The translations under genes were made by a program, and so were the position numbers. This document shows, in pieces, positions 30,320 to 33,882 of a stretch of DNA of 64,000 bases. The notes beneath the pieces are model-generated. The model worked only from the letters and a program-made list of their open reading frames with translations, had not been told where the DNA came from and made no database searches. Source of the DNA: Mycetocola zhadangensis (GTDB lineage: Bacteria; Actinomycetota; Actinomycetes; Actinomycetales; Microbacteriaceae); NCBI RefSeq assembly GCF_003668565.1, contig NZ_RCWJ01000003.1:1-64000 (forward strand). The letters run 5' to 3'. Each line of letters starts with the position of its first letter. Positions within the stretch are counted from its first letter, which is position 1.

Positions 30320-30420
30320 GCCGTCGCCCGCTCAGCAGGCAATCGTGCGTTCATCAGGACGCTTTGTGAGATTCTGTCCTGAAAATCGTGCGATCTCCTG
30401 TCAAGCGGGCGGCCTTTTTT
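30320..30420 (+). terminator. Long hairpin with T-run after the acyl-CoA dehydrogenase
   Basis: GCCGTCGCCCGCT near 30320 pairs imperfectly with AGCGGGCGGC at 30404-30413, which is followed by TTTTTT. Inside lies a second repeat TCAGGAC/GTCCTGA (30354-30382) and direct copies of AATCGTGCG. The T-run overlaps the stop codon of the DUF1905 remnant on the other strand. Confidence 0.55.
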
Positions 30421-30610
30421 AGCTGCGTTGTCCTTCAAAGCGGCTCGGCACCCTCACACACGCAACTGGGAGGCTCGGGGGCCCGCCGAGGCCGTTCACG
30501 ATGACGGTGACGGCTGGTCGCTTGCCTGCTCGGAGCGCCGTGATGATCTCCTCGGGCACCGCGATGCCCGTGTTGTTGCCCTTCATCGACATCGTCGTTG
30601 AAAGTTTCAT
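30419..30610 (-). pseudogene. Truncated DUF1905-domain gene remnant
   Basis: The first 41 residues (MKLSTTMSMKGNNTGIAVPE, then EIITALRAGKRPAVTVIVNG) match the beginning of the DUF1905 domain. The normal family sequence would continue with a Ser/Thr-containing strand and GGRY motif; here it changes abruptly to LGGPPSLPVACVRVPSRFEG and stops after 63 residues. A 3' deletion or recombination is likely. The ORF begins 12 bp after hipA on the same strand, so it could still be transcribed. No good Shine-Dalgarno sequence is present. An alternative is a short bona fide protein, which I rate less likely. Confidence 0.55.
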
Positions 30611-30622
30611 GCACCGAGCATG

Positions 30623-31825
30623 TCACCGCTCGAGCGTGAGCGCATCCCGTCGAAATCGCAATTCCCTCTGCGTTCCTCGCAGTGGAGAACCAGCGAATGG
30701 CAGATCCTCCAGAGCGAGAGACGCCGCCGCGGCCACCGCAATACGGTTAGCGGATGCTGCGGCTTTGGGCGGCAGGCCGAGGGAATCAGCAAATTCGGCC
30801 CAGTGGCGCGCCGTGAGGTTTTTGGTCTTTCCGGCGACCGAGAGCGCGAGGGTGTCGTCGCCGTACAGCAGCGTGCACGGCACGTCATACACGGGCGCGA
30901 CGACGAAGCCGCCGTGAGAATTGCCGAGAATCGAGAGGTTCTTCGCATGCAGGTCGCCGTTTCCGGTCAACCACGCAAACACAAACTGCAGATAGATGTT
31001 CCTCCTTGCCAGAACAGGCGCCTCGCAGTACTGCGCAAGCGCAGTGGCAACCTCCTCCGCCGTGACGAGGTATTTGGATGCCGGCGGAAGCCCCATGACC
31101 TGGGTGCCGTCTTCCAGCGGGAGCCGAAGCAGAGTGCCGCTCTGATCGACGGCTCGATCGAAACGTTCGACCAGAAGCCCGGCCCCGCCGTGTCGGTCGT
31201 GGATCACGGTGCTGGTCGCCACAGGAATTCTGAGCCTTTGCGCACTCGCGAGGTGAGCCGCCTCGTTGGCGACGAGGTGCGGATATTCTGCCGGGTCCAG
31301 TTTGAGCAGGTACCTCTTCCCCCGAAGAGCCAGAGGCGTTGTCAGCACGGATGCACTCGCCTTGTCCTGGACGCCTGGCACGCCGTGCAAGTCCACCGCG
31401 TCCGAGAGGTCAACGAAATCCAGCTCGTCCGGCAGTGAGGTGTCAGCCAACGCGTCCGGCTCAGTCGGTGTCTCGCCCGCTGGAACGATCTGAACATCAC
31501 CGGGAACGTCAGCGCCGACGATAAGAAGCAATGTCAGTTCGTCGTTGACACTCGTCTTGGCGGCATTCTTCAGAACGGTGAGCCGATGGCCTTCGGGCAG
31601 CAGGCCAGAGAAGAACGGGGGCAGCGCACCGTTTTTTGTCTCAATTGTTCGCGCCGAGGGAGGGAGCGAGATTGCGATGGGGCGATGCTCCCCCTTCAGG
31701 TAGGAATCGGTGTAGGCGAACGCCACCCCGCCGTCGTCCGTGCGCGACAGGCGTGCAGCCAACGTTCCGTTCTTGTAGACGTCGGCATCGCGAATCTGTC
31801 TGAATTCCCGCGGCTGTCTGGTCAT
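30623..31825 (-). CDS. hipA: HipA-family serine/threonine kinase toxin
   Basis: HipA toxins phosphorylate targets such as glutamyl-tRNA synthetase and trigger growth arrest or persistence. The 400-residue product has the N-subdomain-1 (SLPPSARTIETKNGALPPFFSGLLPEG as in HipA), a P-loop-like GVQDKASASV (151-160), the ATP-binding Lys175 in RYLLKLDP, LLVERFDR (218-224), catalytic Asp291 in GNGDLHAKN and the metal-binding Asp314 in PVYDVPCT. All kinase residues therefore appear intact. Its start overlaps the hipB stop by four bases. A DUF1905 remnant follows. The target in this organism is unknown. Confidence 0.93.
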   Translation of the reverse strand: MTRQPREFRQIRDADVYKNGTLAARLSRTDDGGVAFAYTDSYLKGEHRPIAISLPPSARTIETKNGALPPFFSGLLPEGHRLTVLKNAAKTSVNDELTLLLIVGADVPGDVQIVPAGETPTEPDALADTSLPDELDFVDLSDAVDLHGVPGVQDKASASVLTTPLALRGKRYLLKLDPAEYPHLVANEAAHLASAQRLRIPVATSTVIHDRHGGAGLLVERFDRAVDQSGTLLRLPLEDGTQVMGLPPASKYLVTAEEVATALAQYCEAPVLARRNIYLQFVFAWLTGNGDLHAKNLSILGNSHGGFVVAPVYDVPCTLLYGDDTLALSVAGKTKNLTARHWAEFADSLGLPPKAAASANRIAVAAAASLALEDLPFAGSPLRGTQRELRFRRDALTLER

Positions 31826-32022
31826 CGGGTAAGGGTCAATCGAAGCCCGAGGACGTCGGCTGTCTTAGCAACGGCTCGAAGCGATGGATTGCCGGCTCCT
31901 GTTTCGATGGCCCGAATGGTGCGCTCGGACGTTCCGGCCAGGTCGGACAACTCCTCTTGGGTCAGCCCCGCTTCCTTGCGGGCGTCCCGAATGCTGGCCG
32001 CGACAGCAGCGATGCTATCCAT
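31822..32022 (-). CDS. hipB: HipB-family antitoxin, XRE helix-turn-helix
   Basis: The 66-residue protein is a single XRE/Cro HTH domain: ASIRDARKEAGLTQEELSDL, AGTSERTIRAIETGAGNPSL, then AVAKTADVLGLRLTLTR. It is the antitoxin and autorepressor of the hipBA operon. The ATG at 32022 has a strong AGGAG six bases upstream, so the open frame extending to 32163 is rejected as start. It overlaps hipA by ATGA. Three copies of a 16-bp operator lie upstream at exact 60-bp intervals. Confidence 0.92.
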   Translation of the reverse strand: MDSIAAVAASIRDARKEAGLTQEELSDLAGTSERTIRAIETGAGNPSLRAVAKTADVLGLRLTLTR

Positions 32023-32034
32023 ATTTCTCCTCAG

Positions 32035-32050
32035 CGGTAATATCCTGCCG
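32035..32050. promoter_or_regulatory. hip operator 1
   Basis: CGGTAATATCCTGCCG has the form CGGNAR-N4-YTGCCG shared by all three sites. It lies 13 bp upstream of the hipB ATG and covers a possible -10 (GATATT on the minus strand, 16 bp from TTCACG). Confidence 0.75.
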
Positions 32051-32094
32051 ATTGTGGCGCCGTGAACGCTCTGCCGCCTAACATAGCCCTCTTT

Positions 32095-32110
32095 CGGCAA
32101 CATCTTGCCG
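32095..32110. promoter_or_regulatory. hip operator 2
   Basis: CGGCAACATCTTGCCG is a perfect 6+4+6 inverted repeat, the best of the three. Its start is exactly 60 bp from operator 1 and 60 bp from operator 3. Confidence 0.8.
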
Positions 32111-32154
32111 ATAGACCGGTTTTCGGACGCGCAGAATAGGGTCGCACCGGAAAC

Positions 32155-32170
32155 CGGCAGCATATTGCCG
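32155..32170. promoter_or_regulatory. hip operator 3
   Basis: CGGCAGCATATTGCCG matches operator 2 in 14 of 16 bases and is followed, as in the others, by GAT or AT-rich bases. It is the most distal site, about 133 bp upstream of hipB and 156 bp upstream of the glycosyltransferase gene reading the other way, so it may affect both. Confidence 0.75.
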
Positions 32171-32325
32171 ATGGCTCACCGGACCGGCCCGACTCTCGCG
32201 CCCAGCCCGGTCGCTTACCACCGCCAGCGGACCACTGTAAAGGCGGGGCTCCTCGCTCGTGCTCCCGGGTACAGTTGCCGACCGGGCACACTTTCGCCTT
32301 CACGCACCACGGGAGGGAGCTCACA

Positions 32326-33882
32326 ATGTCACGCATCCACCTGCGCCAGGGCCGCCACTTCGTGGTCACCTGGGGAATCTCTGACACCTTCGGCGGGATG
32401 ACCGGCGCGTTCCTGCACCGCTCCCGGGCATTCGTACGGCTCGGCGGGGTTTCCGTCGACGTGCTGACGTTTGACGCCCGTCCCGACTACCCCGAGGTCG
32501 AGCGCCGACTGCGCTCCACCGGCAGGATGATCGACGGGATGCGGCTGCTCAACCTGTGGGACTGGCTGCGTGATCACCCGACGCCCGAAAAATTTGCGCG
32601 AGCGGAGGCATCCGTCTTCTCACAGATTGTCGGCTCGCTCGCCCCGCTCGACCCAAACGGGTCGTACCACGCCGGAATGCGCGACGGCGTTCGCATGAGC
32701 CTCACGCGGTACGCGGACGACGGCGTCACCGAACTGCAGGTCGACCACTATCGGGCGGACGGCACCCTCGCTGTGATCGACCGGCGTGACATTCGACAGC
32801 GCGGCACGATCGGCGGGCGCAGCATTGTGCTCTGCGATCGGACCGGCCAGCCGGTGAAGGCGTGGGACGGCGCCTGGGCGCTGTATCGCTGGTGGCTCGA
32901 CCGGGTGCGCGACAAGAAACCGGCGACGATGATCGTTGACAGCAAGACCAGCGCGCGGTTCATGGTCGGCTATCGACGCAAGAAGGTGCTGATCCTGCAC
33001 GTGGTTCACGCCTCGCACCTGCAGGGTTCGAACGGCACGACCGTGCGCGCCTCACGCGCCGCTGTCTTCGCCGAGCCCGAATCGTTCGACGCACTGGTGT
33101 TTCTCACCGAGCGCCAACGGTCGGAGGCACGGCGAATGCTCGGCGACCGCGCGAACACAGCGGTGATCCCCAACGGGCGAGCGGTCCCCCGGGCGTCGGC
33201 TCGGCCGCCCGCTCGCGACGTTCACGCCGGCATCATGCTGTCTGCGCTCGAGAAACGCAAACGGGTCGACCACTCCGTGCGCGCCATCGCTGCGGCGCGG
33301 ACGGCCGGCTCCCCCGTCACCCTCGACATTTTCGGCGACGGCCCTGAGCGATCACGGGTCGCGGCTGCCATCACCAAAGCGGGCCACGGAGTCACGCTGC
33401 GCGGATACGATCCGGATGCCAGTTCTCACCTTGCCGAGAGCTCCTTCCTTCTCCTCAGCTCACGAAGCGAGGGTTTCCCGCTCGTGCTGGTCGAGGCGAT
33501 GGCTGCAGGCTGCCTTCCCATCGCATACGACATCCCCTATGGGCCTGCCGACATCATCCGGGACGGGAAAAACGGCTTCCTCGTGCCGCCTGGCGACGTC
33601 AAAGCACTCGCAGCAGCGATCGAGCGCCTGGCAAACCTGCCGGCCGCTCGAGTCGATGCAATGCGGCGCAACGCCGTCCGCACCGCCGCGGCCTACTCCG
33701 ACGAGGCGGTCACGAAGCGATGGGCTCTGGAACTCGATCGTGCCGCGAAGCGACGCGGCTTCCCGCCCGCCGCGCCAGTCGATGCGCTGGTGTTTCGACT
33801 GCGACGTGGAATAGCCAGGCGATGGCGAAACTGGCGGGGATCGAAATCGCCGCAACCAGCCACCACCGGCCGTCGCCGATAA
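32326..33882 (+). CDS. Family 4 glycosyltransferase, poly(glycerol-phosphate) glucosyltransferase-like
   Basis: The 518-residue protein shows a TagE-like N-terminal part (FVVTWGISDTFGGMTGAFLHRS, and a beta-rich insertion about 95-190) and a C-terminal GT-B domain. The GT-B domain has IMLSALEKRKRVDHSVRAIA, FGDGPERSRV and the EX7E motif SRSEGFPLVLVEAMAAGCLP. The family in Gram-positives glycosylates wall teichoic acid or other surface polyols; the substrate here is an inference. GGGAGGGA precedes the ATG. The C-terminus, about 60 Arg-rich residues (ARRWRNWRGSK), lies over the 3' end of the acyltransferase gene on the opposite strand. Confidence 0.88.
   Translation: MSRIHLRQGRHFVVTWGISDTFGGMTGAFLHRSRAFVRLGGVSVDVLTFDARPDYPEVERRLRSTGRMIDGMRLLNLWDWLRDHPTPEKFARAEASVFSQIVGSLAPLDPNGSYHAGMRDGVRMSLTRYADDGVTELQVDHYRADGTLAVIDRRDIRQRGTIGGRSIVLCDRTGQPVKAWDGAWALYRWWLDRVRDKKPATMIVDSKTSARFMVGYRRKKVLILHVVHASHLQGSNGTTVRASRAAVFAEPESFDALVFLTERQRSEARRMLGDRANTAVIPNGRAVPRASARPPARDVHAGIMLSALEKRKRVDHSVRAIAAARTAGSPVTLDIFGDGPERSRVAAAITKAGHGVTLRGYDPDASSHLAESSFLLLSSRSEGFPLVLVEAMAAGCLPIAYDIPYGPADIIRDGKNGFLVPPGDVKALAAAIERLANLPAARVDAMRRNAVRTAAAYSDEAVTKRWALELDRAAKRRGFPPAAPVDALVFRLRRGIARRWRNWRGSKSPQPATTGRRR

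Follow-up and report, generated by a model that had tools for sequence, protein, structure and literature searches.

What are the three palindromes that stand at an exact 60-bp period upstream of a hipBA operon in Mycetocola zhadangensis, and why are they so evenly spaced? The locus lies in the 64,000-nucleotide stretch of DNA that we analyzed (hereafter the window), and its features are as follows.

30623 to 31825, minus strand: hipA, encoding a 400-aa HipA-family kinase (HipA_C 2.3e-40, Couple_hipA 3e-20).
31822 to 32022, minus strand: hipB, encoding a 66-aa Xre-type helix-turn-helix antitoxin (HTH_3, 5.6e-14).
32035 to 32052, minus strand: candidate operator O1, a palindrome with forward letters CGGTAATATCCTGCCGAT, just upstream of the hipB Shine-Dalgarno-like GAGGAG.
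32080 to 32085, minus strand: possible -10 element TATGTT between O2 and O1, weak and about 8 bp upstream of the family -10-like peak.
32095 to 32112, minus strand: candidate operator O2, 60 bp upstream of O1, forward letters CGGCAACATCTTGCCGAT, where by family alignment the -35 region would be.
32155 to 32172, minus strand: candidate operator O3, 60 bp upstream of O2, forward letters CGGCAGCATATTGCCGAT.

The two genes form a minus-strand operon joined by an ATGA overlap. This is the arrangement of a HipBA type II toxin-antitoxin system, in which a HipA-family kinase gene is immediately preceded, and overlapped, by the gene of a helix-turn-helix antitoxin. The recognition helix of HipB includes E33 and T35, and the top-scoring model for the protein is TIGR03070 (Y4mF family antitoxin), at 63.9 bits, under the curated cut-off of 71.65. 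HipA carries its N-terminal subdomain (Couple_hipA) together with HipA_C in a single 400-aa chain, not as the separate HipS of HipBST systems, and its GxQxK, GNGDxHxKN and YD columns are invariant (14/14). Toxicity of HipA, its neutralization by HipB and repression of the promoter by the complex are putative functions here. In the loop before GxQxK, window HipA has a glycine three residues ahead of the GxQxK glycine and E. coli HipA has a serine there, S150; among the relatives compared for this loop, the HipA of L117 carries serine. Beside the end of hipA, a short frame (30419-30610, minus strand) is by eye similar to the beginning of a longer frame that occupies this position in the congener G003 (L157:3160-3630). 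Its DUF1905 match reaches E 0.095 only, and it appears to be what is left of a gene, at a site that varies. An apparent second hipBA locus on contig C4 was rejected: C4:308187-380126 equals C3:1-71940, with exact identity in the three sections compared (800 bases at the start, 11,001 bases surrounding the locus and 1,927 bases at the end). The copy is a contig-end overlap, so whole-genome counts see the locus twice.

The three 16-mers reported by a sequence-only reading of this DNA are present exactly as written at 32035, 32095 and 32155, start-to-start distances being 60 and 60. The element common to the three sites, CGGNARNATNYTGCCGAT, is an 18-nt palindrome, slightly longer than the 16-nt version (CGGNAR-N4-YTGCCG) recognized in that reading. 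The 18-nt consensus matches the window three times and gave no match in 100 dinucleotide-preserving shuffles. The 16-nt consensus gives five strand matches in the window, all at the three sites, and a mean of 0.28 (maximum 2) in shuffles. Genome-wide, CGGNARNATNYTGCCG with zero mismatches occurs at the three sites, at their C4 copy and at one further place, C3:422918, which we rejected as an operator because it sits inside a long frame (cstA-like by eye). A lone operator-like palindrome, TGGCAATATACTGCCG, at L008:3489-3504 (G000 C4:270488) lies between metX-like and sensor-kinase-like frames (by eye) and may be chance or an orphan HipB site. The period had been described as almost six helical turns, which holds as an approximation only: with 10.5 bp to the turn, 60 bp makes 5.7 turns, and neither 60 nor 61 bp makes a whole number.

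HipA matches are absent from all five other genomes of the genus compared. At family level they occur in 110 of 398 genomes and at order level, where a profile was used, in 111 of 297, mostly as distant matches and with the window's own genome counted. A scan of named genomes, represented by the best 80 of 499 loci, gave up to 72% identity among the matches listed, Arthrobacter first. When 140 loci were scored with a HipA profile, orthologs reached at least 320 bits and the rest at most 158, except for a contig-end fragment at 228. Removal of nine loci without a HipB hit and six with duplicate upstream stretches left 104 orthologous actinobacterial loci and 21 loci of other HipA groups; the 104 are non-identical only, and a few pairs are near-duplicates (e.g., L101 and L103).

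The 60-bp operator spacing is not peculiar to the window locus. In a blind pair search of the 230 bp upstream of hipB, which uses neither letters nor distance, the best distance among the 104 loci was 60 in 50, 61 in 21, 70-72 in 17 and 120-123 (about twice the period) in 12. Shuffled upstream regions showed no comparable peak. Control regions 1.2 kb upstream gave 59-62 bp in 5/76 and 70-72 bp in 4/76, against 72/104 and 17/104 for the loci's own regions, with scores that overlap between the two (own minimum 32.0, control maximum 40.0). An unconstrained triple fit, allowing 20-110 bp, placed both intervals at 59-62 bp in 74 of the 104 loci; in five more both fell on 59-62 or 70-72 bp with at least one long, in 18 one of the two did, and in seven neither did. 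This fit has no score threshold, and some of its third sites are poor, for example in L026, L116 and L120. Weight-matrix sites with no distance filter showed a direct interval of 59-62 or 70-72 bp in 98/104 loci, and the 174 unfiltered adjacent intervals comprised 146 at 59-62 bp, 20 at 70-72 bp, five at 117-124 bp and one each at 28, 66 and 165 bp.

Arrays accepted within a range of 56-73 bp, which was set after the triple-fit results were seen and is why we give the filter-free counts alongside, occur upstream of hipB in 102 of the 104 orthologous loci. Among these 102, O1-O2 measured 57 (1), 59 (1), 60 (52), 61 (30), 62 (1), 70 (6), 71 (3) and 72 bp (8), that is, 57-62 bp in 85, 70-72 bp in 17 and 63-69 bp in none; O2-O3, present in 82 loci, measured 58 (2), 59 (2), 60 (50), 61 (25), 70 (1) and 71 bp (2). 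Thirteen representatives below 50% HipA identity gave O1-O2 distances of 60 in four, 61 in eight and 72 in one. Three loci combine one interval of 61 bp with another about one turn longer: L082 (72, 61), L086 (61, 70) and L138 (61, 71). Because 20 of the 102 arrays have two sites only (14 of them at 70-72 bp, including Arthrobacter, Pseudarthrobacter and Sinomonas), the third operator is not indispensable. L084 and L117 each carry four operators at the 60-61 bp period. No array was found in L094 and L139 of the 104, L094 having 66 bp between GC-rich, chance-like sites. Outside the 104, the further ortholog L214 has a 60/61 array and a clear array was not found in L215. By eye, L017 has a tRNA-like 3' end just upstream of O3, about 150-220 bp upstream of hipB. 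Freely varying spacing among homologous loci had been named beforehand as grounds for dropping the operator reading; what we observed instead is a spacing of 60-61 bp, or one lengthened by roughly a helical turn.

The sequence between the sites is not conserved in the same way. Between representatives below 70% HipA identity, spacers of equal length agree at 28% (622 pairs) and 27% (472 pairs) of their positions, and therefore length has been kept and sequence has not. In the short class, the standard deviation of the spacing is 0.62 and 0.64 bp for the two intervals, and that of the O1-to-hipB distance, measured to the aligned start, is 19 bp. Mapped on a quick tree of HipA (102 rows), the length class shows few changes, two for O1-O2 and two for O2-O3, each of about one turn. 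We take near-constant spacing despite diverged spacers as selection on spacing, a reading of sequence comparisons that suggests operator-bound proteins act in one ordered assembly. The exact 60/60 spacing in the window might also be the relic of a recent tandem duplication of a 60-bp unit, but spacers 1 and 2 of one locus average 28% identical (25 representatives) and the period persists between loci whose spacers are as diverged as this. The spacer comparison contradicts the duplication, and we give it practically no credence. Very improbable, too, is the proposal in the sequence-only reading that the distal site controls the divergent glycosyltransferase gene. O3 does lie about 160 bp from the glycosyltransferase ATG in the shared intergenic stretch, but all five congeners have the gene after the same upstream gene (acyl-CoA dehydrogenase by eye, 0.14-0.72 kb between aligned parts) without hipBA, and in the nearest of them homology upstream of the glycosyltransferase starts at window position 32268, 96 bp beyond O3. 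No glycosyltransferase match at 1e-10 was found in the other ortholog loci within the flanks searched. Since the congeners lack hipBA beside the glycosyltransferase, hipBA is probably a local acquisition in the window genome.

The half-site letters differ between groups of orthologs. In comparisons computed without L094 and L078, HipB residue 33 was the most informative column for half-site position -5, with E accompanying C in 36 loci and D accompanying A in 12 and C in one; C at -5 is also found with V, T, P, S or Q at this residue (26 loci). Residue 35 was among the best three columns for position -3, where F or L goes with C in 34 loci and T with A or G in 42. For several other half-site positions the best HipB column falls outside the recognition helix, and the operator and residue traits change only two or three times on the HipA tree, a clade-structured association with too few changes to test. 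The association is support, though not proof, for recognition of the palindromes by HipB. With arrays upstream of hipB in 102/104 loci and half-site letters that track residues 33 and 35, the sites are very probably HipB operators, as had been proposed.

A promoter can be placed among them by family alignment. In 77 three-site loci, the hexamer TANNNT occurs 48 times in O1-O2 spacers versus 17 times in O2-O3 spacers, and 20 of the 48 start 32-35 bp upstream of the O1 center. Given the position of this -10-like peak, O2 would cover the -35 region and O1 would lie near the transcript start. A scan for consensus promoters and terminators found none in 31900-32400.

Our preferred explanation, to which we assign a probability of roughly 0.65, is that the palindromes are autoregulatory HipB operators of the hipBA operon, helically phased for joint action. 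The sites, their position, the conservation of their spacing, the whole-turn steps and the residue-base association can be read from the sequences compared. From these we infer binding of HipB(A) at O1-O3, repression, participation of the toxin, cooperativity, and looping or wrapping. HipB dimers would occupy O1, O2 and O3, probably each with HipA as in E. coli. O1 and O2 would bracket the core promoter, with the -10-like hexamer about 30-35 bp upstream of the O1 center; O2 would cover the -35 region and O1 the transcript start, and the bound complexes would jointly close the promoter. The distance would be fixed because neighboring complexes need one rotational register, which may serve contacts (HipA-HipA or HipB) between complexes on a bowed stretch of DNA, or bends that sum to a wrapped array. 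An extra, approximately whole turn (10-12 bp) would be tolerated, and intermediate lengths were seen in none of the accepted arrays.

Multiple HipB operators and HipBA autoregulation are already known, as are three evenly spaced operators in Legionella HipBST. This last system is the closest precedent: PMC10653801 describes three even operators, O1-O3, upstream of hipB, with 18-nt sites and 53-bp gaps, the first operator lying 24 nt ahead of where hipB starts. The start-to-start spacing computes to 71 bp (53 + 18) against 60/60 here, and 70-72 bp is the other class of our ortholog group. In Legionella HipS and HipT are separate proteins, whereas here there is one HipA protein. A profile of the group's HipA scored 139.6 bits with HipT(Lp) and 67.3 with HipS(Lp) in the PDB, 129.7 with Shewanella HipA (4pu3) and 122.5-126.5 with E. 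coli HipA; the group's HipA is nearer to the HipS-HipT pair than to either of the others. E. coli K-12 hipBA likewise has several palindromic HipB sites upstream of hipB and a hipB/hipA overlap, but its four TATCC-N8-GGATA sites are spaced at 28, 39 and 28 bp, so that the window's three sites, with other letters and 60/60 spacing, are unlike the E. coli hip operators, a point on which the sequence-only reading was right. Window HipA is 27% identical to E. coli HipA. E. coli HipB has a C-terminal tail ending in W and the 66-aa window HipB ends before such a tail; according to PMC10627512, the HipB of HipBST is likewise without the C-terminal residue of the E. coli protein. In the literature searched, with subscription journals thinly covered and sources available in part (we drew on PMC3920265, PMC8262856, PMC10653801, PMC10627512, PMC4803016 and PMC6581861), evenly spaced hip operators were found only for Legionella HipBST (PMC10653801), and neither the conserved 60-61 bp array in actinobacterial HipBA, nor variants of it by one turn, nor a common spacing ladder was found.

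Three independent operators, each bound by a HipB dimer alone, with O1 and O2 set by promoter geometry, O3 a spare and no joint complex, would fit the bracketing of the -10-like element by O1 and O2 and the 20/102 loci that have two sites only. They would also fit the Legionella work, where HipB(Lp) gave a shift with 50-bp fragments that held one operator each and possible intermediate occupancy was suggested (PMC10653801), which the authors contrast with E. coli. Promoter geometry, however, accounts poorly for O2-O3, which is as tight as O1-O2 (0.62 and 0.64) and about one turn longer in three loci, though -10-like hexamers are much rarer there (17 vs 48), and we consider independence unlikely. 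The conserved phase argues for some joint assembly. Such an assembly may work through contacts or through summed bends, and E. coli offers precedents for both: HipB is reported to bind cooperatively at four operators and to bend the operator by 70 degrees, with HipA as co-repressor, and the HipA N-subdomain is reported to participate in dimerization during DNA binding. A version of the preferred explanation in which phasing serves DNA shape alone, the promoter being curved or wrapped by the summed HipB bends so that RNA polymerase is kept out while neighbors make no contact, would draw on that bend and on the tenth base from the dyad, which in the 60-bp group is A or T without exception (100%) on one side and in 88% of cases on the other. 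The reported dimerization of E. coli HipA speaks against it, and we regard shape alone as a minority possibility. The dimerization residues are reported to differ in HipS of HipBST; with window HipA nearer to HipS-HipT, this argues against simple transfer of the contact model.

Other HipBA groups have arrays of their own. Among the 21 loci of other HipA groups, the triple fit gave even spacing at 26-29 or 37-38 bp in 10, 46/46 in two (L029 and L030, which are related, score low and are off the ladder described below) and uneven spacing in nine. Forty further HipA places were picked by hand from longer lists, mainly as matches starting near the HipA N-terminus; 19 exceeded all 40 pooled shuffles, 15 of them even at 26-30 bp, one at 37/38 and three uneven. 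HipBA loci on viral contigs and on plasmids of rhizobia and other proteobacteria, in part annotated with a Y4mF family antitoxin, resemble the window in having three even palindromes, but at 49-50 bp and with other letters, often of the TTTCCCGANCGGGAAA type; both intervals were 48-51 bp in 24 of 33 such loci, some of them near-duplicates, and nine fell outside, L216 and L217 being two of the nine. Shuffles for the 40 places (one each, pooled) and for the 33 plasmid and viral loci (12 each) preserve base composition only. L210, L249, L254, L256 and L215 exceed their own shuffles with uneven spacing. Two viral-contig HipA relatives, L216 and L217, have A/T-rich palindromes at 35/31 and 33/31 bp, above shuffles and off the ladder.

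The rung means, 27.0, 37.4, 49.7, 60.4 and 71.0 bp, fall on a line of 11.1 bp per step that 5 of 5000 random sets of five matched, an exploratory fit whose five rungs were chosen after the data were seen and which leaves out the off-ladder loci (L029, L030, L216, L217, L210, L249, L254, L256, L215 and the three uneven ones among the 40 further places). In the interval lists, compiled by hand, the 26-bp intervals of three loci were entered twice (mean 27.0, or 27.1 without), and the 50-bp list holds near-duplicate viral loci. With its computed spacing, Legionella HipBST would fall on the rung at 71 bp. We tentatively propose, at somewhat less than even odds and from sequence comparison, a general HipBA rule of usually three even operators on a ladder of about 11 bp (about 27, 37, 50, 60 and 71 bp), each group occupying one or two rungs and the letters drifting with HipB.

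The associations at residues 33 and 35 are a start on a HipB recognition code, and a conserved spacing rule offers a means of searching unstudied genomes for HipB operators, whatever their letters. If the ladder is true, it would mean a common higher-order assembly of HipB(A) on DNA that conserves its register and not its length, possibly built with the toxin's help. How HipBA assembles on its promoters bears on the silencing of growth-arresting kinases.
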